DNA of 36,003 bases from Phascolarctobacterium sp. (lineage in GTDB: Bacteria > Bacillota > Negativicutes > Acidaminococcales > Acidaminococcaceae), in the NCBI GenBank assembly GCA_017452325.1, contig JAFTMR010000018.1, positions 1 through 36,003 of the forward strand, in the 5' to 3' direction. The translations under genes were made by a program, and so were the position numbers. The notes beneath the pieces were generated by a model. That model did not search any database. It worked only from the letters and a program-made list of their open reading frames with translations, and was not told where the DNA came from. The number at the start of each line of letters is the position of its first letter. Position 1 is the stretch's first letter. This document shows, piece by piece, positions 79-35,823 of this stretch.

Positions 79-120
79 AAAAAAACCGACACTAATCTGG
101 CTACTTGCCCAGACGGTCGG
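79..120 (-). terminator. Riboswitch-controlled intrinsic terminator
   Basis: On the minus strand CCGAC (116-120) pairs with GTCGG (86-90). An inner helix of TCTGG with CCAGA adds to the stem, and a run of seven U (79-85) follows. The 5' arm overlaps the 3' conserved block of the ZTP aptamer (CCGTCTGGGC), so aptamer and terminator exclude each other. ZMP/ZTP binding should therefore prevent termination and switch the purine gene on. Confidence 0.85.
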
Positions 121-168
121 CGTCACCGGTCATACTCCCATGTGGTAATCCACTTTCCGTCAGTTATA
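104..168 (-). ncRNA. ZTP (pfl) riboswitch aptamer
   Basis: The minus strand reads ACTGACGGAAAGTGG, then ACCACATGGGAG, then ACCGG, then GCCGACCGTCTGGGCA. This matches the pfl/ZTP motif: CUGGCG-type 5' arm, GUGG/CCAC hairpin, GGGAG, and 3' CCGCCUGGGC. The pseudoknot arms covary from the usual GGCGG/CCGCC to GACGG/CCGTC and stay paired. ZTP riboswitches sense the purine alarmone ZTP/ZMP that accumulates when 10-formyl-THF is short, and they control one-carbon and purine genes. The gene directly downstream is the AICAR transformylase that consumes ZMP. The assignment is by eye; a covariance-model search would settle it. Confidence 0.9.
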
Positions 169-185
169 TGACCTACTATAGTAAA

Positions 186-13529: not shown

Positions 13530-13631
13530 CCTCTCATCTTTCAAGATAATCTTGCAGGATTTAGCACCATAGCAAAAGCCTGGTTGCCGGACGTCATTGG
13601 GCCTGTTCCCTCAGCCACTCTTGATAAGAGC
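13530..13631 (-). ncRNA. SAM-I (S-box) riboswitch
   Basis: The minus strand carries the S-box blocks in order: CTCTTATCAAGAG, TGGCTGAGGGA, CCC(A)ATGA, CGGCAACC, GGTGCTAAATCC and GATGAGAG. SAM binding represses the downstream metQ gene through the terminator. The match is close to the textbook consensus. Confidence 0.97.
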
Positions 13632-22045: not shown

Positions 22046-22453
22046 TTATTGTTTACCTTGGTGCTTTTCAAAGAAGGCGTTGTATTCCGCTACAACCTTG
22101 TTAGCATTTTCAATCGCCATGTTTCTTTGCTCAGCGATATGGTTTAAATCGTCTGTCGCACCATCAATATACTTTTGGGCTGCATCCATATAAGCAGTTA
22201 CCGCTGCAACCCACTTGGTAATAGCTTCAGTATCGCTAATGCTTTTGGGCGTTGGTGGGATTGCAGGCAACACATCTGCTTGCAAAGGATAAGCACTAGC
22301 CATATTGGTAGCCTTGGGAGCAGTTTGCTCCACAGCAGTTGCTTTACCTTGGCTTGTCCCTTTATCCGCAGTGCTTTGCGCTTGCGCAGTACACGCAATA
22401 CCGCACACCAAAACCATTGCCAAAATCACCTTACAGATTTTCTTGTTACACAT
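22046..22453 (-). CDS. Small exported protein, unknown function
   Basis: 135 residues with a signal peptide (about 1-25, ending AQAQ), a Thr/Ala/Pro-rich linker, then a helical C-terminal half from about residue 75 (ITKWVAAVTAYMDAAQKY, DLNHIAEQRN). The shape suits a periplasmic helical protein or chaperone-like factor. Its start overlaps the end of the XRE gene by 28 nt, so it is translated from the same message. It is the last gene of the autotransporter array. I do not recognise a family. Confidence 0.7.
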   Translation of the reverse strand: MCNKKICKVILAMVLVCGIACTAQAQSTADKGTSQGKATAVEQTAPKATNMASAYPLQADVLPAIPPTPKSISDTEAITKWVAAVTAYMDAAQKYIDGATDDLNHIAEQRNMAIENANKVVAEYNAFFEKHQGKQ

Positions 22454-22692
22454 ATACTTTTAATCCTTGCATCTGTTGTTCTTAGAAGCTCCACAATATT
22501 TATGTTCATACTTTCCGCAATGCGCAGATACACAGACAATGGCACCTCATCAACGTCTATCCCTCTTTCAATTCTGGACAGCTTGCCCACGCCAATGTTC
22601 ACGTTCCGTGCCAAAACCACCTGCGTTAACCCGCGCAGCTTGCGGTGAAACACAATGTTCGCCCCTATATCCTTGTAAACATTTTCATTCAT
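22426..22692 (-). CDS. XRE-family helix-turn-helix regulator
   Basis: An 88-residue Cro/C1-type protein. The HTH spans about residues 8-60: IGANIVFHRKLRGLTQVVLA, then VGKLSRIERG, then PLSVYLRIAESMNINIVEL. It is small and has no second domain, so it probably binds DNA as a dimer. ATG 22690-22692 is chosen with GAAGGG 8 nt upstream. It sits between ompH/skp and a small exported protein and is likely a regulator of this array, possibly autoregulatory. Confidence 0.85.
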   Translation of the reverse strand: MNENVYKDIGANIVFHRKLRGLTQVVLARNVNIGVGKLSRIERGIDVDEVPLSVYLRIAESMNINIVELLRTTDARIKSICVTRKSVR

Positions 22693-22707
22693 AACTTGAA
22701 CCCTTCC

Positions 22708-22720
22708 ACCACTTCGTGGT
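22708..22720 (-). promoter_or_regulatory. Hairpin beside the XRE ribosome site
   Basis: ACCACGAAGTGGT is an inverted repeat with 5-bp arms, directly before GGAAGGG of the XRE gene. It could be an operator or an RNA hairpin that limits ribosome access. Confidence 0.35.
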
Positions 22721-22746
22721 ACGCCCCTCAAGGAATGGTTAAGAAA

Positions 22747-23163
22747 TTACATTTTCAGCGCCGCAATTACTTCCTGGGTCAAATCCTTGCCGCCTGCAAT
22801 CATGGCGCCTGCGTTCACAACGCTGTCGATATTGTTAGTCTTAGCCACACGCAGGATAGTGCGTCTAATCTTTTTATTGATAGGTTCATACTTACCTTGT
22901 TCAAACTTCGCCATTTGGGCATTCAACTTGTTGGCAAGTCCAATCTTTTCCTTATCAGTGGCGAGCGCTTTAGATTCAGTATTGAACTGCTCCTGCAAAC
23001 GAGCCTTCTCAGCAATAACCTCTTGGGCAACTTGCTTGATGCCGGGATAGTTTGCAACAACAGCGTTCCAATCCACAAAGCCAAGTTCTGCGGCGAAGGC
23101 ACTGGTGCTAAAGCCCAAAGCCATCAATGCGGAACAAAGTAAGGTCATAAGTTTTTTCTTCAT
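22747..23163 (-). CDS. OmpH/Skp-family periplasmic chaperone
   Basis: 138 residues with a signal peptide ending in SAFA (about residue 24). The mature start AELGFVDWNAVVANYPGIKQ is the family pattern, and a long helical segment (about 45-100; KARLQEQFNTESKAL) forms the tentacle arms of Skp-like trimers. Skp holds unfolded outer-membrane proteins in the periplasm on the way to the BAM complex. It lies 17 nt after the YbjN-like gene and downstream of the giant autotransporter, so it may be a dedicated chaperone. Negativicutes often carry several ompH copies. Confidence 0.85.
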   Translation of the reverse strand: MKKKLMTLLCSALMALGFSTSAFAAELGFVDWNAVVANYPGIKQVAQEVIAEKARLQEQFNTESKALATDKEKIGLANKLNAQMAKFEQGKYEPINKKIRRTILRVAKTNNIDSVVNAGAMIAGGKDLTQEVIAALKM

Positions 23164-23180
23164 TTAAAGTAGGTCTCCTG

Positions 23181-23627
23181 TTATTCAATTTCTTTCCAGA
23201 TTTTTGCCATGATGGAAGCGTATTCTGCTTCGAGGAACTTCACGGTTTCTGCAATGATGGCATTTACCAAAGCAGGGTCAAAAGCATCATCTTTAGAAAC
23301 GATGCATGCGTTAAGGAGCAAATCGCCTTCATTGGTTACTACAAATTTATACACTCTGTAGTTGTTGTTCATTTCGTTCAGGTAGGTAGCAACTTTAGCA
23401 AGCACATCACCTTTAATGATTTCAGGAGCAAGGCGAACTTGAAGCAGTCCGTACACGCTTTTATCAAGCAAGATTGCGAAAGGAAGTGTTTGACCTTTAA
23501 CTTGCATCAAGCTGTGGAACACAGCGGTTTCGTTTTCGTCATTGCGTTCTTCAATTTGGAAGCATTCAATTTTATTTTCAGCAAAGAAGTCTTTAAGTTT
23601 AGTAGTTTTTACATTAACATTTTCCAT
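23181..23627 (-). CDS. YbjN-domain protein
   Basis: 148 residues without a signal peptide, so cytosolic. The pattern fits the YbjN fold, which resembles type III secretion chaperones: LKDFFAENKIECFQIEER, then FAILLDKSVYGLLQVRLAP, NEMNNNYRVYKFVVTNEGDL and LVNAIIAETVKFLEAEY. In this setting it may keep the autotransporter precursor export-competent before Sec, but that is inference. GGAG is 11 nt before the ATG. It follows the autotransporter gene after 63 nt that contain a perfect hairpin, and precedes ompH/skp by 17 nt. Confidence 0.7.
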   Translation of the reverse strand: MENVNVKTTKLKDFFAENKIECFQIEERNDENETAVFHSLMQVKGQTLPFAILLDKSVYGLLQVRLAPEIIKGDVLAKVATYLNEMNNNYRVYKFVVTNEGDLLLNACIVSKDDAFDPALVNAIIAETVKFLEAEYASIMAKIWKEIE

Positions 23628-23658
23628 TTTATGGTTGTCTCCTTATATCTAGGGTGGA

Positions 23659-23675
23659 CGGTGGCAAAGCCACCG
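23659..23675 (-). repeat. Hairpin between autotransporter and chaperone genes
   Basis: CGGTGGCAAAGCCACCG has perfect 7-bp arms. On the minus strand no U tract follows, so it is probably not a full terminator. It could stabilise the 3' end of the long upstream message or attenuate the downstream genes. Confidence 0.55.
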
Positions 23676-23690
23676 CCCGATTATTATTTT

Positions 23691-26600
23691 TTAGAAAGTT
23701 ACTCTCAAGCCTGCATCTACACGCCATTTTTCGGTTACATCGCCACCGAAGCTACGTTCATAGGTTGCATACAGCAGGCTGTTATCGCTCAGCTTAGCAG
23801 TGCCGCCAAGTTGCATTTCGTACCAAGTATCGCCAAAGCTGATGCTGGTGCCTTTAGTTTCTTCTGCAGTGTAGTGGGTATCAAAATCGCCACCAAATTC
23901 ATGAGCCAAAGCAAGTTTAGCATAGTAGCTTGCTTTATCAGTTCTTTGACCAATGCCAAAACCAACGCGACCGATGATGCTGTTGAAGTCATCTTGTTCA
24001 ACTTGCATGGTTGCAGTTTTGCCGTAAGCAGCGAGCATATCACTGGTTGCAGTATAGTCTTTGCCTTGAACATGACCAACGGTCAATTCAACGCTGGGGT
24101 CAAAGTAGAAGCCGTTGCCTTTTTCGATGCGTTTGCCGTATTCCGCACTGATGGAAGTACCCCAAGTTTTGAAGTCGCCTTCAAGTTTGTAGCCATCGTT
24201 GTTGAATACTTCGTATTCGTTCTTCAACTGGCTGCCTTTGAGGATTAAGCCAAGGTAACGACCGTCGCCATAATCTTTGTTACCGTAAACAGAGAGGCTG
24301 GTTACAGTCATTTCGCCTTCACCACCACGGTCATAGCGGCTATCGCCTTCATTATGGCTTACTGCTACGCCCACGTTCCAACCATTGCCAACTGCTTTGT
24401 CATAGCCAACTTGGTATGCTTTGTAGTTGGTGGAGAAGTTGGTGTTTTGAGCATCCATTTCGTATTTACCGCCATAGTATTTAGCCCAAACGCCGCTTTC
24501 TTCTGTAGCAAGGCGTACATCGCCCATGCGTTGGAGCAGGTCATTGCTTTCGCTGCGCCACATCATAACGGTGGAAGCCATTGCAGATTTAGCGCCTTTC
24601 ATCATAGCAGTTTCGCTATCGCCATAGATGTAATCACCAGTGTAAGTGTTTTCTACAACAATATCTTTAGAAGTATTCAAGTTACCTTTGCCGTCAGTAC
24701 CAAATACGATTTCACCTTTACGCATTGCACTGGAAGTAGTCATACCTTCGAGGATTTGAACAGTACCAGTCAAATTACCATCAGTATGATTAATATAGGT
24801 AAGTTTTTGAGCGAGAGCGTCAAGAACTTTCTTAACTTCTTCTTGCTTACTGGTACCAATGCTATCAGTGTGCAAAGTAATATTAGAACCTGCAGTTACA
24901 GCTTTAATTGTTACATCACCGCCAAGGATGTTGGTCGGAGTTTTTTCATCGTGGTTGTACATAATGGTAGTATTGCCACTATATTGTTCCACATTCAAAT
25001 GAGTACCAGTTTTATCGCTCATTTGGATGTAACCGCCATTACCACTTAAGCTGTTGATGGTAGTTGCATCGTTTTCTTTAGCAGTGTTAGTCCAAATTGC
25101 ACCGCTATTGATTTCCATAGTCAAGGTGTTACCTTTTTCATCTTCGTGGTAACCAGTCCACGCACCACCATCTTCGAGCAGTACATTAAGGTCTACGCCA
25201 CCAGTACTATTACCAGTCCAAGAAGCTCCGTAAGTGAAAGCTGCATAGAAGTCATTATCACCATTGTTATCATAATGAACATCATCTTCCAGTTTAGAAC
25301 CTTGGGTAGTCATAATAACAGAAGACTTATCATCAGGAACTACCATTCTACGGGCAGACATCTTCATCATTACAGGTTGTGCTTGGTTTTCTTCAACAGG
25401 TTTTGCAGCACCAAGGATAATTTTGCCTTTGATAACTACATCGTGGTCTTCGCCAGCTTCGTTAATCTTAATCTTGCCACCTTCGATAACTTTGATAGCA
25501 ACATTGTCTTTACCTTCTTCTGCTTTGCCACCGATTACGCCACCTGCGATTTCTACTTTAGAACCTTCGCCTACTGCGATTGCTTCTTTACCATTTGTTT
25601 GAGTAATGTCTACAATGCCATCAATTTTTACGTTAGCACCTTTATCAGCGTGGAGCACTGCCGCAGATTTATCATTGTCTTTGGCAACCATAGTAATTTT
25701 TGCATCTTTGTTATCTTCATCACGTTCAATAACAACATCGTTGCCTGTGCCAGAAGCGTAAATAGCATGTGCCTTACCATTTTCGGCAGTTGCTTCGATT
25801 AATACGTCACCTGCTTTTTTAATGGTTACTGTACCGTTAACAGCTTCGATACCTTTAGCTTCTTTGTTTTCACCAGTAGTACCACCCACGAGGGAAAGGT
25901 CTTTACCATCCAGTTCGAGAACGTAATGTTGACGTTCTACCCCTGCGTTGGAAATCAAGGAAGCATTTTCAGAAGTTTTTTCAGGTTCAATCTTAACGTG
26001 ACCAACGTGTTCGTGTTCAGGTTTTTCTTTACCGTCTTTGTCAACGTCAAGTTTACCAAAGTCAATAACGGTTTCACCTTTTTCATTATCTACTTTTACG
26101 ATGGTATTACCTGCTTCGTTTTTGAAAGCCTCATTATTTTCCAAGTTGTCGCCAGTAATGGGCGCACCAATTTCAACAGGCGGTTTATCAGGCTCAACAG
26201 GTTTTTCCGGTTCTACAGGCTTATCTTCCGGTTTTTCAGGAGTTGTGCCACCAGTGCCACCTTCGTTACCGCCACCTTGGGTGTTATCGTCTTCTTCGTC
26301 ATCACTGGGAGGAGTTACATCAAATCCCAAGCTGTCTTTATTCAAACTACCTTGACCAGTAGAGCTATTGTAATCAATGCTACCAACATGTTTGCCTACA
26401 CTTTCAGTGGTCAAGCCTTCTGCGATTTGAACATAGCCTTTCAAATTGCGTTCACCGTTAACATAAGCAGTGTAATACAGTTTTTCCGCAAGGTTATCCA
26501 AGGTTTCAGCAACTTGGTTATTAGTCATACCGTAGCCGTCGGTACTCAAGGTAATCTTAGAACCGAGGGTTGCGTTTTTAATAGTAGTAGTACCACCAAG

Positions 26601-29600
26601 CACATTAGTAATGTTATTAGCATCGCGTCTATAAATTACGGTAGTGTCACCACTGTAGTTAGTGATTACGAGGTTACCAGTTTCTTGCGGTGTAAGATTT
26701 TCAACGATATGAGTATTCTTATTACTTACACCGTTACTGCCTTCCGCATGGTTTGCTTCGTTCTTACCAATAAATGTTTTATTACCGGTCATATCAATGT
26801 AACCACCACTACCAACAAAACTATATACCTTACTATCCATAATGACGTTGTTGATAGTTTGCTCTTTGGTGATTGCGTTTTGCCATAATGCCCCATCTGC
26901 CAAGGTTAAGTATAAACCACCATTAGTATTGCCCACAGCATCAGGTTCGCGCTCCGCAACGTTAAAGCCGTACCAAGTAGTGCCTTTGCCTTCCATGGTA
27001 ACGTTCATTTCGCCATCACTAAAGCCAGTCCAATAAGCACCATCTTTCATATACAGTGTTACATTGCCCTCTTGTCCTTTGGTAACACCATAACCGCGGT
27101 TATCGCCATAGTTACCAATCCAATGACTACCTTTACCATTTAAACCAACAGTGATGTAACCCTTGGTACCCATACCACCATTAGTTACAAAGTCACCTTC
27201 GATAATAGTATCCTTATAATTACCTGCACCAGTAATGTTACCAGCGTTATCTTTAAGTACGTTAACATTTACAATTGCAGCATTCTCGGAAACAAATTCG
27301 CCATAAGCACGAATGGCAGCCCACGCACCATTAATAGCTTTAATTGTGCCACCACCAATTTCAATAGTGGATGCTACAGCACTAAGGCCTTCGTTATTAC
27401 ATTTGTCCAAATCTGCTACGATATCAACTTTACCGGTAATTACAATTTTAGAACGTGCATCACATACACCGTTCATAGTTTTTATTCCTGCACCACTAAC
27501 ACCATAAGAACTACCTTCCGGACCAGCAGTAGTATGTATAGTTACAACGCTACCAGTTTCAGCATTATTGATGTATACCTCACCACCGCCATTAGCAAAA
27601 ATGCCTGCAGTGGGACCACATCCATTTTCATAAATGTTAATATCGCCAGGGTTGTTTATTTCTACAATGCCACCTTCAATGGCACTAATAGAAGCACCAC
27701 TACCAAGTTCAGTACTATCGTTCTTAATGGTTAAATCATTACCATTCAGATTCACAACTGTTTTATATACGGTGTTGGGATCCATAATATCGCCACTCGC
27801 GATAATTACCGCACTTATGTCCTTGTGATAAGGTCCTGCATCAACCCGTTTATTATTAATGTCAAAGCTTACATCAGATTTAAAATCATAAGTGATTTCG
27901 CTATCAATTACTTTATAAATACCAGTCGCTACCCAAGGCAGGTCTTTACCAAATACACCATAAATAGGTTCAGTATAAACGCCAGTTGTTTCATTTTGGA
28001 ATCCATCTGGTACTATATAACCATCCGGTAATTGAGTAATAATATCTTCAGCACCAGAACCATCCTTAGGTATTTCTTTGATACCGCCCTTACCAGTTTC
28101 ACTATCAAACACAATGCCTGCATTAAAGGTTTTATTAGAGTTATTCCATTCTACATTGTCAATTTCAGGATTTAGCTTACCATCAGCACCAAGAATTTCC
28201 GCTTTTTTCAAAATATCTACATCAAGAGCAGAAGCCGTCATACCTTCGCCAATTCGCAAACTTGCACTCAAGTTATTTTCACCTGAGCCACCATTTTCCG
28301 TACTGATAGCACCAGTATAATACAGTTTGTTAGCTAAATTAGCTAATACATATTCAAGGTTACCCCAGTTAATAGCATCTGAATAATGTGTGTGTAAAGT
28401 AATCTTACTGCCAGCAGCAGCACTTTTAATGGTAACATCGCCACCTTCAAATTTATAAGGTTGTTTAGAATTGTAGCCGTAATATACCATTGTATTACCA
28501 CTATAGTTATCAATAACGATATCACCACTATTTGCAGTTTGTACAATCTTACCGGCTACATCACCTTGTTCGTTGGCAATATTAAACCCGTTATTTCTGC
28601 CACTATAAATTATCACATCACCTCGTAAATTAGTAATATGGCTCGTTATACCATAATCACCATTGGTAGATTCATTTGTCCAAGTTGCACCATCTAACAG
28701 GCACAAATTAGCAATGCCGCCATTATTGATTACTGCACCATTGAAATATGCATCTTCTCCTCTAAAACCTGCATCAATATGTGCATTTGCGCCACCAAGA
28801 TACATATCTCCATCTATTTTTCCGTATTCGCGTATGCCATAACCAGTGTATTGTTTGTACTTATTTTCACCTGTGTTATATTGTTGCACGCTATATTCTA
28901 AATACATGCCTTTGTAAGTAGGATTTACGTCAAAATAAATATCACCTTCATAAGCTGCTAAAGAATAATATTTACGGGCTTCACTGCCTTTTGGTACAAG
29001 TATTTTACTTCCGGTTTTATATCCCATGGTAGATAAATCATATCCATTATCTTTATACCACTTAAAGATACCAGTATTCTCAGAATTAAAAGCACTAGAA
29101 GCAGCAATTATTGCTTTTGCACCATTTGCATCAACGGTTACACCATTACCGCAAATGTCCATAAACGCAGAACCATTCATTAAATTAAAGGTAGCGTTCT
29201 CTACATCTACCAAAATGCCGGAGCTGTTGGTGCGTGCATCTGTACTATCAGTATTATAACCAACGCCCCATTCATTATTGGCTTCACCTTTAATATACAA
29301 ATCAGTCCCTACGTTCATTGTTCCGATGTTAATTTGACCACCGGTTGCACTTGTTTCATTAGCATCACTCTTTGTAATAGCAATGGCATTACCGCCATTG
29401 TCTCCAAGCATGGTGATGTTCAGCTTTTGCATATTACCTGTTAAGCTAAGATTTAAACTTTCACTGCCAGTTGTAGGATTAAGCCAAATAGCATTAGTAC
29501 TTTGAGCATCATTTTTAGTCACGATATTTATATCACCACTAGCACTAACACTACCGCTTTTACCATCTGTTACATAAATACCGGTACCCACATTCTGAAT

Positions 29601-32537
29601 TTGTACAGTACCACTACCTGAAATATTACCAGCTGTATTGTTAGCATCGTAAATTAAGCCATTAGGATATGTAGCATCATCAATCCATTGACCATTAGGG
29701 TTCAAGGTATCATCTTTACCAGGATGTACAGGTGCGTTTACATTAATTTGTCCATCATTACCGGTTCCAGCATCACCAGCTCCAATAAGGCTACCTTGTC
29801 CGTTAGTACCATTAAAGTTTATGTTTGCAGTTCTAGTAACAGCAGAAGAAGTCAAGCCTTCGCTTAAACCAACTGCAACAGCAGAAAGATTGCTTGCGTT
29901 GCCATTGTAGTAAAGCTTATTTGCCAAAGCTTCTAGCACTGCATCAACTGCCGTAATATCTCTAGTGGAAATACCTTTTTGATTAGTTGCTATCATAGCA
30001 ATTTGGCTATTTGCTTCCGCTTTATTGATGGTTACACTACCGCCAAGAATTTCGGTAGCATTTGCATCAGCATGGCTAGTGTAATCAACCTTAATAGCAC
30101 CACTCAAATTACTAATAACAATATCTTTACTATCAGCATTTTGCCTGATGATACCAGCTTGATTCAAACTGTTACCACCTATTAATGTGTTAACACGGCT
30201 AAAAGTATTACTACCAATATCTTCATTATCCTGTTCATAACGAGTATTGTTAGCTACGTTTGTCCAAGTTGCACCATTTTTCAAGGTAAGGTTTACGGTA
30301 CCGCCATTGTCAATAGCACCATTAATATAGGAATCACCAGTTGCCAATCCTAAGTTAATGGTTGCACCTTTCAGTGCAAAAAGGTCACCATCTATCTTAA
30401 CATCATTAGCACTACCATCAGCGTTCATACTAATAGTTCCATCATAGGCCGCAAGTGCGTAGTAACCATAATCAGTACCAGTGGGAACGGTAATGCTACC
30501 ACCTTTAGCAATGGTAACCATTGCATCTTCAGCATTAACTGTCACACCATTACCGTACACATCCATATCAACATTACCATTTACAGTTACGGTGCTATTG
30601 TTAACATCAACAAGAATGCCTGCATTGTTAAAACGGCTAAGTACATTTGTAGGGTTACCTTCGATACCCCAAGTTTCATTATCTACACCTTTGATAGACA
30701 AATCGCCATTGATAGTAATAGTACCACCCTTTGTAGATTCCTTACTATTTTCACCCCAACGGTCTGTTTTTTGAATAGCAACACCGTTACCACCGTAACC
30801 ACCTTCCATGGTTAAATTGGTGTTACCTGCGGTGATGGTAATGCTTTCGCCACCAGTCTTGGACGGGTCAAGCCAAATAGCATTAGTTAAGGTATTGCCA
30901 CCATCCATAGTTTTAGTGATGATATTTAAATCGTTATTGCCACTTGTAAAAGTAATGGTACCGCCATTTCCGGCAAAAATACCTACGGGAGAAGCTATAT
31001 TATTTTCTACTTGAATTTGCAAACCTTCACTAGCTTTTACATTTGTAGCATAGCCTTCCGAATAAATGCCAGCGAGTACATTGTTAGCAAGATTACCTTC
31101 AATATTCGTACCAAGATTAATTAAATTATCCTTGTCTTCAATGTTCTTATATTGGTTTTCAATTTTAGTAACATTACCAACTACATCTTTCCAAACATTG
31201 GCTTTAGGATTTGCTTTGTCTTCGTCAACAGCCAGTTGTAATTTTACAAGGTTACCTTCGGGAATAACATCGGTGCTGATAATGTCCCAAGTGTAAAGCT
31301 CTTCGTACATTTTGTTAGCTGCGAAGCTATCAGTACCAAAGCTCAACGGTGTAGTTGCACCGTCAGTGTAGATATTCAGCTTGTTGCCAACCTGCACCCA
31401 CAAGCGTTTGGTGTTATATTCTGCATCCAGTCTGCCAAACCAACCAGGAGCAGCAGCTTCGTGATAAACTTCTTTCCAGTTTTGCGGTTGAGAAGAAAGC
31501 AAATTACTTACAGTAGTTTGGTAAACAGTTACATCTACATTCTTACCTGCCCTGCCAATGTTATAAGTCATAACATAAGCAGTACCATTGGGCATTACCT
31601 TTAAGCTACGGAACTCACTTTTAGGAATCTTCTCGCCATTACGAACGGTGTAGAGATTTTCCGGCAAATTAATTTGACGAGTATCTGTAAACCTTTTACT
31701 TACAGGATCTAAAGTTACTACGTCAATAGAAGTTTCTGCATTGGAGTTTTCAGCACCGTAGTATTGGTAGCCACCGATTGCAGTACTAAGCATATAGTTG
31801 TTGTACACGTTGAGTGCTACGGTGTCAGTATTCTTACCCATAGTGGTATAGCCGTCATAGCTAAGTCTGCCATCTTCTTTGATAACGTATTTAATCAAAT
31901 AAGACGGGTCATACGGTGCATAACCACCCTTAGGATTAACGTTTGCAATTACATACAGATTGTCATCAATAATTACCACGCCTTCACCGTGTAAGGATGC
32001 ATTTTTATCTGCAAATACAACATCATCATATAACTCTAAATCTTTTTTAAGGTCTCTAGTAAATGCAGTTTGGTCACTGATAACGCTATCAGTAATTTTT
32101 GCCACGCCAATAGTACCTTCATCATAAGATGCTACATATACAAAATCTTTATAGCGTGCTACATCGTGGGCATTTGTTGCATCACTTGTGTTGCCTGCTA
32201 CCCTATTACTCCAATCACCTTGAGCATCAAAAGCATAACTATTTTGTAGATTAACAGTACTATATGTATATTGACGGATAAACAAAGAACTTTTACCAGT
32301 AACAGGGTCAACAGTGTTATAAACTGCAGGGTCACGGTTAAGACCGGTGATTACAGATTTTACTGAATAAATATCGTCAGAATTTATAAAGGAGCCTTCC
32401 AGTGCGCCCATGTGAGAAGTTGTATAGTCAGAAGCGGTTACTACGCCAAGCTTAGCAGCTTCTGCACTGCTGCCAAGTACAAAACCACTTAACACGGTTG
32501 CAAGTATAGCGGCTTTTTTAGTAGAGCTTATCTTCAT
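23691..32537 (-). CDS. Giant autotransporter (type Va) adhesin-like protein
   Basis: 2948 residues. A signal peptide (1 to about 27, SSAEAA) is followed by an N-terminal domain (about 30-430) with repeated short blades such as DVARYKDFVYVASYDEGTIG, suggesting a YncE-like beta-propeller. The passenger then has beta-helix-type sequence (GATWTN and GDGG-like turns). It contains four long repeats whose shared block GSxITLxT...LAxKLYYT...EGxTxS falls near residues 840, 1375, 1990 and 2550. A Pro/Glu/Lys/Asp linker lies at about 2070-2125. Residues about 2645-2948 are the autotransporter beta-barrel (WAKYYGGKYEM, then a C-terminal VTF). The gene starts 18 nt after the TonB receptor stop, so the two are co-transcribed. 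The ligand is unknown. Confidence 0.92.
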   Translation of the reverse strand: MKISSTKKAAILATVLSGFVLGSSAEAAKLGVVTASDYTTSHMGALEGSFINSDDIYSVKSVITGLNRDPAVYNTVDPVTGKSSLFIRQYTYSTVNLQNSYAFDAQGDWSNRVAGNTSDATNAHDVARYKDFVYVASYDEGTIGVAKITDSVISDQTAFTRDLKKDLELYDDVVFADKNASLHGEGVVIIDDNLYVIANVNPKGGYAPYDPSYLIKYVIKEDGRLSYDGYTTMGKNTDTVALNVYNNYMLSTAIGGYQYYGAENSNAETSIDVVTLDPVSKRFTDTRQINLPENLYTVRNGEKIPKSEFRSLKVMPNGTAYVMTYNIGRAGKNVDVTVYQTTVSNLLSSQPQNWKEVYHEAAAPGWFGRLDAEYNTKRLWVQVGNKLNIYTDGATTPLSFGTDSFAANKMYEELYTWDIISTDVIPEGNLVKLQLAVDEDKANPKANVWKDVVGNVTKIENQYKNIEDKDNLINLGTNIEGNLANNVLAGIYSEGYATNVKASEGLQIQVENNIASPVGIFAGNGGTITFTSGNNDLNIITKTMDGGNTLTNAIWLDPSKTGGESITITAGNTNLTMEGGYGGNGVAIQKTDRWGENSKESTKGGTITINGDLSIKGVDNETWGIEGNPTNVLSRFNNAGILVDVNNSTVTVNGNVDMDVYGNGVTVNAEDAMVTIAKGGSITVPTGTDYGYYALAAYDGTISMNADGSANDVKIDGDLFALKGATINLGLATGDSYINGAIDNGGTVNLTLKNGATWTNVANNTRYEQDNEDIGSNTFSRVNTLIGGNSLNQAGIIRQNADSKDIVISNLSGAIKVDYTSHADANATEILGGSVTINKAEANSQIAMIATNQKGISTRDITAVDAVLEALANKLYYNGNASNLSAVAVGLSEGLTSSAVTRTANINFNGTNGQGSLIGAGDAGTGNDGQINVNAPVHPGKDDTLNPNGQWIDDATYPNGLIYDANNTAGNISGSGTVQIQNVGTGIYVTDGKSGSVSASGDINIVTKNDAQSTNAIWLNPTTGSESLNLSLTGNMQKLNITMLGDNGGNAIAITKSDANETSATGGQINIGTMNVGTDLYIKGEANNEWGVGYNTDSTDARTNSSGILVDVENATFNLMNGSAFMDICGNGVTVDANGAKAIIAASSAFNSENTGIFKWYKDNGYDLSTMGYKTGSKILVPKGSEARKYYSLAAYEGDIYFDVNPTYKGMYLEYSVQQYNTGENKYKQYTGYGIREYGKIDGDMYLGGANAHIDAGFRGEDAYFNGAVINNGGIANLCLLDGATWTNESTNGDYGITSHITNLRGDVIIYSGRNNGFNIANEQGDVAGKIVQTANSGDIVIDNYSGNTMVYYGYNSKQPYKFEGGDVTIKSAAAGSKITLHTHYSDAINWGNLEYVLANLANKLYYTGAISTENGGSGENNLSASLRIGEGMTASALDVDILKKAEILGADGKLNPEIDNVEWNNSNKTFNAGIVFDSETGKGGIKEIPKDGSGAEDIITQLPDGYIVPDGFQNETTGVYTEPIYGVFGKDLPWVATGIYKVIDSEITYDFKSDVSFDINNKRVDAGPYHKDISAVIIASGDIMDPNTVYKTVVNLNGNDLTIKNDSTELGSGASISAIEGGIVEINNPGDINIYENGCGPTAGIFANGGGEVYINNAETGSVVTIHTTAGPEGSSYGVSGAGIKTMNGVCDARSKIVITGKVDIVADLDKCNNEGLSAVASTIEIGGGTIKAINGAWAAIRAYGEFVSENAAIVNVNVLKDNAGNITGAGNYKDTIIEGDFVTNGGMGTKGYITVGLNGKGSHWIGNYGDNRGYGVTKGQEGNVTLYMKDGAYWTGFSDGEMNVTMEGKGTTWYGFNVAEREPDAVGNTNGGLYLTLADGALWQNAITKEQTINNVIMDSKVYSFVGSGGYIDMTGNKTFIGKNEANHAEGSNGVSNKNTHIVENLTPQETGNLVITNYSGDTTVIYRRDANNITNVLGGTTTIKNATLGSKITLSTDGYGMTNNQVAETLDNLAEKLYYTAYVNGERNLKGYVQIAEGLTTESVGKHVGSIDYNSSTGQGSLNKDSLGFDVTPPSDDEEDDNTQGGGNEGGTGGTTPEKPEDKPVEPEKPVEPDKPPVEIGAPITGDNLENNEAFKNEAGNTIVKVDNEKGETVIDFGKLDVDKDGKEKPEHEHVGHVKIEPEKTSENASLISNAGVERQHYVLELDGKDLSLVGGTTGENKEAKGIEAVNGTVTIKKAGDVLIEATAENGKAHAIYASGTGNDVVIERDEDNKDAKITMVAKDNDKSAAVLHADKGANVKIDGIVDITQTNGKEAIAVGEGSKVEIAGGVIGGKAEEGKDNVAIKVIEGGKIKINEAGEDHDVVIKGKIILGAAKPVEENQAQPVMMKMSARRMVVPDDKSSVIMTTQGSKLEDDVHYDNNGDNDFYAAFTYGASWTGNSTGGVDLNVLLEDGGAWTGYHEDEKGNTLTMEINSGAIWTNTAKENDATTINSLSGNGGYIQMSDKTGTHLNVEQYSGNTTIMYNHDEKTPTNILGGDVTIKAVTAGSNITLHTDSIGTSKQEEVKKVLDALAQKLTYINHTDGNLTGTVQILEGMTTSSAMRKGEIVFGTDGKGNLNTSKDIVVENTYTGDYIYGDSETAMMKGAKSAMASTVMMWRSESNDLLQRMGDVRLATEESGVWAKYYGGKYEMDAQNTNFSTNYKAYQVGYDKAVGNGWNVGVAVSHNEGDSRYDRGGEGEMTVTSLSVYGNKDYGDGRYLGLILKGSQLKNEYEVFNNDGYKLEGDFKTWGTSISAEYGKRIEKGNGFYFDPSVELTVGHVQGKDYTATSDMLAAYGKTATMQVEQDDFNSIIGRVGFGIGQRTDKASYYAKLALAHEFGGDFDTHYTAEETKGTSISFGDTWYEMQLGGTAKLSDNSLLYATYERSFGGDVTEKWRVDAGLRVTF

Positions 32538-32555
32538 AATAGAACTTTCCTTTCG

Positions 32556-35201
32556 TTAGAATTCACATTTCAAAGTTGCATAATAGGTTCTGCCTTGTAC
32601 GGGGAACTCAGGATTGATGTAACTGCCGTTGGCAAGAGCAATTTTTTGTTCAGGTCCTTTGTCGAATACGTCGTTGCAGCCTACTGCCAGTTGCCAACCA
32701 TCTTTCATTTTCCATTTAAGACCGGTGTTCAAAACCAAAAGGTCATCAGTGGGCAAACCATCAGGGAACTCACCTGCACCACCTTTAACACGGTATGTAT
32801 AGTACTTGTCGGTGTAATGAGCTTCTGCAAAGATATCCAAAGTATCTGTAGGACGGTAGGTGAAACGTACGTTGCCTTCCCATTCAGGTTGGAAAGTAGG
32901 CCAAGTATCAAGGTAATCATATACGCCATCTTTTTTGCTCTTAGTTTTAATATCGGTATAAGTTGCTTGGATATCCAAATCAAACTTGCTCCAGTTAAAG
33001 TTGGATTGCAGTTCGATACCATGTGCTTTACCTTTATTATCGTTGCGATAGCTCCAGTAGTCTTTGCCTACGCGTTGCAGTTGAAGCATGTTTTCAGAAT
33101 CACGCCAGAAGTAGGTTAAGCTGGTTTTGTTATAAGCACCCAAAGCTTCACCGTGCCACAGTGCGCTAATATCAAATTGCTTGCCTTCTTCCGGAATGGG
33201 GAAGGTAGAATCACGACCGTTATCGTTAGGAGCGGGCAAGATGCCTGCACCGTCACCGGCGATTTCGTACATATTGAGCAAGCGGTAGTAGGTACCACCA
33301 GTCATACGCATGGTAAAGTTATCATCAAATTGTTTCTTCAAAGCAAGCTGCCAAGTAAACTTGTCATCAGTTTGTTCATCTTCTGGAGAAATCCAGCTAA
33401 AGAGTTTATCTGCACCTTCATTAAATGTTGCTCTATTACTATAACCAGTAATTGTAGAACGGTTATATTTAACGCTAGGTGTCAAGTACCAAGATGCTTT
33501 ATCGTCCAAAGTAATGGTGTCTTGAAGTTGAATGTTGATCATTTCTTGTTCGTATTCATCACGAATTTGACCAAAGATGGTATTGATATTGGTATCATCA
33601 ATTACACGGTCAGGCATTCTGGAACCATCAACATTCAAGTTTTCACGAGAGAAGTTCACTTGGAAGTCAAGCATATTCTTGTCACTAATCTTATAAGTAC
33701 CGTCAATTTGAGCATTGTACTTGTCTGATTTATATTCGCTGTATTCACGCAAAGGAATAAGTTTATCTTGTTTAGTTACTAAATCGTCATTTATGTGTTC
33801 AGCGCGGTAGCTTTTATCGGACTTGGTGTAGTCAAGCATCCAGCCCCATTCAAGCTTGCCAACATTGTTACGGTTTTGGAGCAAAAGCTCTTTAGTATCA
33901 ATCTTTTGACGACGGCTGTCATAACCGTAGTTGTCATAAAGGTCTACCGCCCAACCTACATTAGCATCGGCAAAGGAACCACCGTACAAGCTGTCCGGCA
34001 GGTGACGGTCAATTTTATTCCAAGCTGCTTTAACCATCCATTCATCGTTTTGCCATTTCAAAATGCTGTTGATGTTTTCGTAATCGTTGTATTGACGCCA
34101 ACGTTTTGCATTTTTTGCTTGTGCAAGCTTTTCTTTGTTTTTATCTCTATTTTCAATGTCACCTTTTAAGGTATCGCTGTTTTCAGGTTTTAATTGATTT
34201 GCAGTTGCTTTAGCCCATGCTTCATAGGCATTAGCTTTTGCAGTAGCATCAAGATTATTCCAATCTTTAGCGATTTGTTTATCAATCCCAAGGTTCACTG
34301 CATCTTCAATGCTTAACATCTCATTGTTGCTAGAAAGATATTCCTTGTACTTATCAACAAAGCCACCTTGTTCTTTTGCAACATAGCCTTGCCAATCTGC
34401 TTCGCTTGCCTTAAACCCATCAACTTGTGTACTAGTTAAGCCTAATTTATCTTTGTAGGTATCAATGCTTGTGCTGTTAAAATTATCAATCTTGTCTTGG
34501 TATTGCTTAATTTGTGCTTCCAAGCCTGCGATTGCAGTAGCGGATGTATAGTTTTCGTAGCTAAAGTCGCCGTCACTGCTTTCGTAGTTGGTACCAAACA
34601 TCAAGCTGCCATCTCCGAGGGGGGCAGTAACTTCTACAGCACCTTTTTTCCCACCGTAGCTGGATTTGCCAAGTTCCACGCTAACATCAGCTTTATCCGG
34701 GCGTTTGGTTACGATGTTGATAACACCACCAATAAAGGTGCCTGCAAAACGAGCAGGAATGTAGCCGCGGTAAACTTCAATGCGTTCTACGTTGGCTACG
34801 GGGATGGTGGAAAGGTCTACCGCGCTGTCGCCGCCAAGGTTACTAAGCACGCCGTCGATGAACACGCCAACTTGTGCCGCAGTAGAACCACGCACGGTTA
34901 CGGTGGTGTATTGTCCTTTACCGTTTACTTCGCGTACGTGCACGCCGGGAACCTTGCGCATCAAATCAGGCAAAGTTTTTTGTTCGCCCTTGTAATCATC
35001 AGGACGGATAACGGTTACACTACCGGGGGAAAGCTTGGTTTCCCAGTCAGGGCGAGCCGCTTCTACGGTAATGCCTTCCAAATCAAAAGCAAGCTCTGCC
35101 CTTGTATCTGCTTCTTGTGCAGCTGCAGGCAGGCTTGTTAAACAGCCAAGCACGAATGCCATGGCTAGGGTTAAAGTTTTGTTGTTCTTGTGCCTTTTCA
35201 T
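32556..35201 (-). CDS. TonB-dependent outer-membrane receptor, probably corrinoid-related
   Basis: 881 residues. A signal peptide (1 to about 29, PAAAQ) precedes a TonB-box-like GITVEAA (43-49). The plug domain follows (about 55-170: VTVIRPDDY, TVTVRGSTAAQVGVFIDG, ERIEVYRGYIPARFAGTFIG, INIVTKRP), then a 22-strand-type barrel ending in CEF. Residues about 218-366 are a helical, charged insertion between early barrel strands (EAQIKQYQDKIDN, ANAYEAWAKATANQ), which would sit in an extracellular loop or periplasmic turn. ATG 35199-35201 has GGAG 9 nt upstream. A cobalamin riboswitch upstream suggests corrinoid uptake (BtuB-like); a Fur-box-like site also allows an iron-chelate role. Confidence 0.9.
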   Translation of the reverse strand: MKRHKNNKTLTLAMAFVLGCLTSLPAAAQEADTRAELAFDLEGITVEAARPDWETKLSPGSVTVIRPDDYKGEQKTLPDLMRKVPGVHVREVNGKGQYTTVTVRGSTAAQVGVFIDGVLSNLGGDSAVDLSTIPVANVERIEVYRGYIPARFAGTFIGGVINIVTKRPDKADVSVELGKSSYGGKKGAVEVTAPLGDGSLMFGTNYESSDGDFSYENYTSATAIAGLEAQIKQYQDKIDNFNSTSIDTYKDKLGLTSTQVDGFKASEADWQGYVAKEQGGFVDKYKEYLSSNNEMLSIEDAVNLGIDKQIAKDWNNLDATAKANAYEAWAKATANQLKPENSDTLKGDIENRDKNKEKLAQAKNAKRWRQYNDYENINSILKWQNDEWMVKAAWNKIDRHLPDSLYGGSFADANVGWAVDLYDNYGYDSRRQKIDTKELLLQNRNNVGKLEWGWMLDYTKSDKSYRAEHINDDLVTKQDKLIPLREYSEYKSDKYNAQIDGTYKISDKNMLDFQVNFSRENLNVDGSRMPDRVIDDTNINTIFGQIRDEYEQEMINIQLQDTITLDDKASWYLTPSVKYNRSTITGYSNRATFNEGADKLFSWISPEDEQTDDKFTWQLALKKQFDDNFTMRMTGGTYYRLLNMYEIAGDGAGILPAPNDNGRDSTFPIPEEGKQFDISALWHGEALGAYNKTSLTYFWRDSENMLQLQRVGKDYWSYRNDNKGKAHGIELQSNFNWSKFDLDIQATYTDIKTKSKKDGVYDYLDTWPTFQPEWEGNVRFTYRPTDTLDIFAEAHYTDKYYTYRVKGGAGEFPDGLPTDDLLVLNTGLKWKMKDGWQLAVGCNDVFDKGPEQKIALANGSYINPEFPVQGRTYYATLKCEF

Positions 35202-35270
35202 AAACACATCTCCATTCATATATCTGTGAGAGTTAAAAAAATAACTTGCTTATCTAAAATAAAAAAAAAC

Positions 35271-35459
35271 TTAAATATATCCGGCTGTGCTAGTTTCAAC
35301 TAATTTACGGGTATCCAATTCTTCAAAGAATTGCTCGGAATTAATCAAAACCTCTTTAGCAAGTGCTACCAGAAGGTCTTTTTTAACCGTTATGGTTGGG
35401 CCTTCTTCCTTTTGCCAAAGCTCCAGATAATATTCAAGTTCTTCATCAGTATATTCCAT
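35271..35459 (-). CDS. Small acidic protein between riboswitch and receptor
   Basis: 62 residues beginning MEYTDEELEYYLELWQKEEG, with a second amphipathic half KKDLLVALAKEVLINSEQFF. There is no signal peptide or membrane segment, so it is cytosolic. GGAGG lies 7 nt before ATG 35457-35459. It is the first gene after the cobalamin riboswitch and is followed by the TonB receptor after about 70 nt without a terminator. I recognise no family; it could be a leader-type regulator or an accessory factor. Confidence 0.7.
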   Translation of the reverse strand: MEYTDEELEYYLELWQKEEGPTITVKKDLLVALAKEVLINSEQFFEELDTRKLVETSTAGYI

Positions 35460-35528
35460 AAACACACCTCCCCATCCCAGGATTGCCCTTTGCGCAATAC
35501 TTCCATAAGATAGGAAAAGGTATGTACA

Positions 35529-35668
35529 AAAGGCAGCGCCCTGACTTAGGTCATCGTCGTTCCTTCCCTTGCGATCGGTTATGAAGGAACGGCTCACATC
35601 ACAGTTGGGTTGCAGTGTTGGATTCGCACCAAGCTTCCCTGCCAATATGCCGGGGCCACGCCCGACAT
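35529..35668 (-). ncRNA. Cobalamin riboswitch
   Basis: The minus strand shows the class blocks in order: GGCAGGGAAGCTTGGTGCGA then ATCC, CTGCAACCCAACTGTGATG, a stable hairpin CGTTCCTTC/GAAGGAACG, GACGATGACC, and the B12-box-like AAGTCAGGGCGCTGCC. The B12 box deviates slightly from consensus. No clear terminator lies before the 62-aa gene, so control may be translational. It predicts that the downstream 62-aa protein and TonB receptor respond to cobalamin level. The outer limits are approximate. Confidence 0.9.
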
Positions 35669-35698
35669 AGCATTTGCTGATATTAAATTCTTATTTTT

Positions 35699-35713
35699 CA
35701 GAAATAGTTTCTG
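35699..35713. promoter_or_regulatory. Second palindrome in the leader
   Basis: CAGAAATAGTTTCTG is a palindrome with 6-bp arms. It shares the AACTATT core with the Fur-box-like site 64 bp upstream in transcription order, so it may be a weaker copy of the same operator. Confidence 0.35.
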
Positions 35714-35762
35714 CTTTTTATAACTTTAAAGCACTTTATACCATTACATTGTTTATTATTTT

Positions 35763-35777
35763 TGAGAACTATTCTCA
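35763..35777. promoter_or_regulatory. Fur-box-like palindrome
   Basis: TGAGAACTATTCTCA fits the 7-1-7 Fur motif TGATAATnATTATCA at 11 of 14 fixed positions, with a symmetric G/C change in the arms. It lies about 11-25 nt after the predicted transcription start, where a bound repressor would block elongation or initiation. Confidence 0.6.
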
Positions 35778-35794
35778 TTAAATTCTGTATCACA

Positions 35795-35823
35795 ATTATA
35801 CACGCTGTCCCCCCCCCTGTCAA
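35795..35823 (-). promoter_or_regulatory. Consensus promoter with G9 tract in the spacer
   Basis: Minus strand TTGACA (35818-35823), a 17-nt spacer and TATAAT (35795-35800), both perfect. Nine of the 17 spacer bases are an uninterrupted G run (35809-35817). This is the only strong promoter seen for the riboswitch, receptor and autotransporter array. Slippage in the G run would shift the spacer from its optimum. Confidence 0.85.

Follow-up and report, generated by a model that had tools for sequence, protein, structure and literature searches.

We find that a cobalamin riboswitch, a BtuB-like TonB-dependent receptor and an autotransporter whose passenger begins with a predicted BtuG-type propeller follow one another on the minus strand of a 36,003-nucleotide stretch of DNA from Phascolarctobacterium sp., a gut member of the Negativicutes (contig JAFTMR010000018.1; hereafter the window). 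They likely form a cobalamin-repressed cassette for corrinoid capture and uptake that resembles BtuB-BtuG of Bacteroides, the capture protein being delivered by autotransport instead of lipidation. On a wider scale, diderm Firmicutes and some Deltaproteobacteria probably have a B12 capture system of their own, built from a new propeller family, one receptor subfamily and three interchangeable displays, including autotransporter stalks and a position adjoining receptor fusions.

Transcription of the locus may start at a sigma-70 promoter, TTGACA-17-TATAAT, that agrees with the consensus at 12 of 12 positions (35795..35823; this and all features up to the end of the paragraph lie on the minus strand). 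The riboswitch aptamer (RF00174, 35515..35688) is followed by a 62-aa leader gene (35271..35459), whose protein is kept behind the riboswitch in loci L010, L011, L016 and partly in L014. A T-run read from the sequence between this gene and the receptor (35255..35269) could be the tail of an attenuator; its counterpart in relatives comes after a real stem, which is strong only in L016. Across the region, terminator-like sites occur no more often than in shuffled sequence; the earlier statement that the run of genes holds no clear internal terminator is to be qualified by the T-run ahead of the receptor, where an attenuator is possible. The receptor (887 aa, 32556..35219) is separated by 18 nt from the entire gene of the autotransporter (2948 aa, 23691-32537). 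The latter comprises the propeller domain (residues 28-430, 31248..32456), a stalk rich in Gly, Asn and Thr with recurrent motifs, from which a beta-helix is presumed (residues 431-2682, 24492..31247), and a beta-barrel (23691..24491; PF03797 at residues 2683-2927, E 8e-36). Signal peptide, long passenger and C-terminal barrel are those of a type Va autotransporter; unlike known members of this type, the passenger starts with a BtuG-like propeller, and a cobalamin riboswitch precedes both its gene and that of a TonB receptor. Downstream lie a YbjN-like gene (23181..23627; PF10722, 18.0 bits, under the Pfam cut-off of 22), a gene for an OmpH/Skp-like periplasmic chaperone (22747..23163; PF03938, 49 bits), an XRE-type regulator conserved in L010, L011 and L014 (22426..22692; PF01381, over the cut-off) and a small exported protein of 135 aa with a signal-peptide-like N-terminus, conserved in L011 (22046..22453). 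Open reading frames and Pfam matches place every gene named in the initial annotation where it had been located.

When Rfam was run at gathering score over the whole window the riboswitch was missed. A short local scan recovered the aptamer (27.3 bits, E 7.5e-5), and in a whole-genome scan it reached 33.1 bits, over the gathering cut-off of 31.5. Other Negativicutes keep this gene order, with a cobalamin-class riboswitch ahead of it almost every time: a same-strand riboswitch of this class stands upstream of the operon in 31 of the 33 propeller loci whose upstream sequence could be inspected, a count that includes the window and L011, both under the family cut-off in local scans. The exceptions are L088 and L013; in L013 the riboswitch runs on the other strand. 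Scores are mostly 85 to 120 bits, and the riboswitch of L016, a sister-genome locus in which the cassette lies directly downstream of cbi/cob biosynthesis genes, matches the AdoCbl-II class. Among the 31 is the deltaproteobacterial locus L089, with its riboswitch ahead of the propeller and receptor genes. Because whole genomes of 1.8-5 Mb contain only 5-31 such riboswitches, the probability of a chance hit at 1 kb or less stays well below 1% for each locus, and the observed linkage is not explained by chance. Within the window's genome, two of 13 autotransporter barrels are riboswitch-linked, and these are precisely the two that bear propellers. The word array, by which the locus had been described, does not suit the window, which has a single riboswitch, but it fits the relatives, many of which carry two or three in a row; tandems of two to four are seen at L070:5467-6016, L098:3483-4794 and L094:2299-4429. 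An extra cobalamin riboswitch at L058:3290-3468(-) separates ompH from a second long exported protein of a different kind, and B12 may thus control other surface proteins too.

What is the domain at the tip of the autotransporter? For residues 28-430 no Pfam family gave a match, and phmmer and profile searches of the PDB yielded no similar sequence and no BtuG chain. Retinol-binding proteins surfaced in the profile search, in matches confined to a short stretch, and were discarded as spurious. The AlphaFold model, built with 13 homologues, is an all-beta propeller (pLDDT 81.5, pTM 0.87). In VIA-align its first match is cobalamin-bound BtuG2 (8bn0, Z 26.3 over 309 residues at 3.3 A), and the cobalamin-bound BtuG1 (8blw_B, Z 25.9) and BtuG3 (8okv, Z 25.8) score nearly the same, in keeping with the propeller that had been proposed and with a predicted BtuG-type fold. 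6-Phosphogluconolactonases tie with the BtuGs (Z 25.9), followed by YncE (22.8), and since these propellers score equally the ligand is not assignable from the fold alone. Residues kept in 24-25 of 25 diverse members include D44, N97, H99, H158, E160, N176, N211, Q233 and R285; several of these, among them the polar residues D44, N97, H99, H158, E160 and R285, stand where blade strands begin, on strands read as the inner ones, and may form a ligand site. BtuG is a surface lipoprotein, whereas the autotransporter form has an ordinary signal peptide with no lipobox cysteine, and stand-alone forms have, as read from the sequence, either a signal peptide likewise devoid of that cysteine or no signal peptide. 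By sequence and by anchoring, the cassette does not belong to the BtuG family.

The receptor has the Plug and barrel domains of a TonB-dependent receptor (PF07715 and PF00593). E. coli BtuB is both its closest named relative and its closest solved structure, mainly through the plug: the best NCBIfam match is TonB-B12 (TIGR01779) at 101 bits, far short of the BtuB equivalog cut-off of 599.7, and the best PDB match is E. coli BtuB, with E 7e-20 in the plug region. It differs from E. coli BtuB in forming a subfamily of its own with the motif RPDWESKLSPGTVTVIRPDDYKGEQK and in a helical insert of about 140 aa (34116..34550), which is much shorter in Selenomonas receptors. In a low-confidence model (pLDDT 52, too poor for a fold search) the helices occupy mature residues 189-333, between strands 3 and 4, and if the barrel runs like that of BtuB the insert probably sits in extracellular loop 2. 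In BtuB2-BtuG2, loop 2 runs alongside the linker that tethers BtuG2 (PMC10404256).

A profile search detects the propeller domain in 39 of 380 Negativicutes genomes and in 21 of 102 genera; carriers include Phascolarctobacterium MAGs and oral Selenomonas, and among Deltaproteobacteria two MAGs, one of them Candidatus Adiutrix. A separate search of the 380 genomes with a receptor profile yielded 41 receptors of the subfamily in 31 genomes. Two are cut by contig ends, and of the 39 testable receptors 37 adjoin a propeller gene (the exceptions are G296:C69 and G083:C74). The gap between receptor and autotransporter is 11 to 33 nt across 16 measured loci. Receptor and propeller distance matrices are correlated (Mantel r 0.80, reached by none of 9,999 permutations), in part through shared species history. 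All 14 receptors linked to autotransporters fall into a single clade (SH-aLRT 100) that spans several families and holds even in genomes that also carry a stand-alone pair. Given that distances covary and that receptors of the autotransporter type are monophyletic, the cassette was most likely inherited as a unit.

Three architectures are found. First, the propeller forms the N-terminal end of an autotransporter, between about 1,800 and 4,700 aa long, as in Phascolarctobacterium relatives, Selenomonas and others. In relatives of the window's locus, too, a YbjN-like gene comes after the propeller-autotransporter. The autotransporter had been credited with its own chaperones; within the compared set, YbjN-like and OmpH genes do accompany this form only, as expected for export helpers, although this does not in itself prove a chaperone role. 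Second, a stand-alone propeller of 415-467 aa follows the receptor, in some cases with a signal peptide and in many without. Those of L056, L057, L059, L061, L063, L073 and L015, which are signal-less, share a conserved C-terminal tail like KSFASHIRLAREARELAEK. A motif near AAGGAGGTGATGCC, a near-perfect extended Shine-Dalgarno sequence, occurs shortly past the receptor stop and well before the propeller start in the receptor-propeller gaps of L015, L056, L057, L059, L061, L063, L068-L073, L097 and L098; in some loci a tiny ORF, one to a few codons long, comes next. Genes for C1 and S8 peptidases lie directly after stand-alone propellers at L059:9804-10697 and L068:9719-10690. Third, in four genomes a passenger, an autotransporter barrel (PF03797), a plug and a TonB barrel are encoded in a single ORF with a stand-alone propeller adjoining (L095:5251-9534(-), L097:2554-6945(+), L094:6702-11096(+) and L031:2117-7219(+)). 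These fusions place two outer-membrane barrels on one polypeptide behind cobalamin riboswitches, and as Rosetta-stone evidence they argue that autotransporter and receptor work together.

On this basis we propose that when corrinoids are scarce the riboswitch would permit expression of receptor and autotransporter. Sec would export the autotransporter, aided by OmpH and perhaps by YbjN, its barrel would insert into the outer membrane, and the propeller would be displayed on the outer end of a stalk some 2,250 residues long. There it would bind corrinoids in its central channel and pass them to the adjoining receptor for TonB-driven import. The initial annotation had suggested such capture by a stalk-borne propeller for the neighbouring receptor. 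Predicted fold, gene order and riboswitch largely bear this proposal out, and the corrinoid capture itself we infer. Transfer to the receptor would be the weakest step: with the propeller on the distal, N-terminal end of a very long stalk, the fit with the tight lid that BtuG forms on BtuB is poor, and a lid of this kind would call for a bent or folded-back stalk, or else a loose hand-off. For the stand-alone relatives, many of which have no signal peptide of any kind, surface exposure would be less certain.

The distance between propeller and receptor lends some weight to a different reading, in which the propeller does capture corrinoids, as a released or shed scavenger that resembles a hemophore and makes no direct contact with the receptor. 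A lid like that of BtuG is hard to achieve from the tip of so long a stalk, and the stand-alone forms are free of a lipid anchor, some having an ordinary signal peptide. The close pairing of propeller and receptor, their covariation and the natural autotransporter-receptor fusions speak against it, and we regard this reading as unlikely. Less probable again is that the propeller belongs to an adhesin that simply shares the B12 control and serves it for docking, adhesion or shielding, corrinoids being imported by the receptor unaided. The propeller does tip a long adhesin-like stalk, whose length varies greatly (1,827 to about 4,700 aa), many propeller folds bind no ligand, and propellers other than BtuG score equally in the structural comparison. 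However, in about half of the loci the propeller is stalkless and still lies beside the same receptor type under the same riboswitch, and it covaries with the receptor. That the ligand is some non-cobamide cargo needed at low B12, such as cobalt, a precursor or a peptide, seems the most improbable reading: riboswitches govern cobalt import as well in other bacteria and the C1 and S8 peptidase genes adjoin several stand-alone loci, but the receptor is closest to BtuB and the nearest solved folds of the propeller include cobalamin-bound BtuG1-3.

We thus favor a capture and uptake cassette that parallels BtuB-BtuG of Bacteroides, where too a TonB receptor gene stands beside a beta-propeller gene under cobalamin riboswitch control (PMC6143338, PMC10404256), with several paralogous loci per genome and, by prediction, the same fold (Z about 26 to BtuG1-3). 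BtuG homologues found by BLAST were confined to Bacteroidetes in 2018, and the authors asked why this phylum, unlike other Gram-negative phyla, had added a high-affinity B12 binder (PMC6143338). BtuG has been reported from Bacteroidetes alone, while the propeller described here, with no detectable sequence similarity to it, occurs in Negativicutes and Deltaproteobacteria. A literature search, which left most subscription journals uncovered, turned up neither a link between cobalamin riboswitches and autotransporters nor a receptor-propeller pairing in Negativicutes, in agreement with the initial remark that no system of such layout had been described. If the cassette binds corrinoids, another phylum has arrived at the same solution with different parts and a different export route. 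Autotransporters would then gain a role in nutrient capture tied to a TonB receptor, with a bearing on how bacteria of gut and mouth, such as Selenomonas and Phascolarctobacterium relatives, compete for B12.

Is scavenging needed by these hosts? CbiD is present in the genus, and cobU/T/S-like genes can be read in the window's genome; the genus therefore probably makes cobamides itself, which renders scavenging less obviously necessary. The window's genome has, in addition, a second riboswitch-linked TonB receptor, accompanied by ABC transporter genes and devoid of a propeller. Together with the cob genes, this receptor indicates that the cassette would be an extra corrinoid route and not the sole source. 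Methylmalonyl-CoA mutase, which could have accounted for a need of B12, was not detected in the window's genome, which is 90% complete. A cobalamin-dependent methionine synthase is read from the sequence of L090. Elsewhere in the window, a SAM riboswitch precedes an NlpA-type lipoprotein gene at 13531-13630(-), and a ZTP riboswitch lies at the window edge at 100-177(-).
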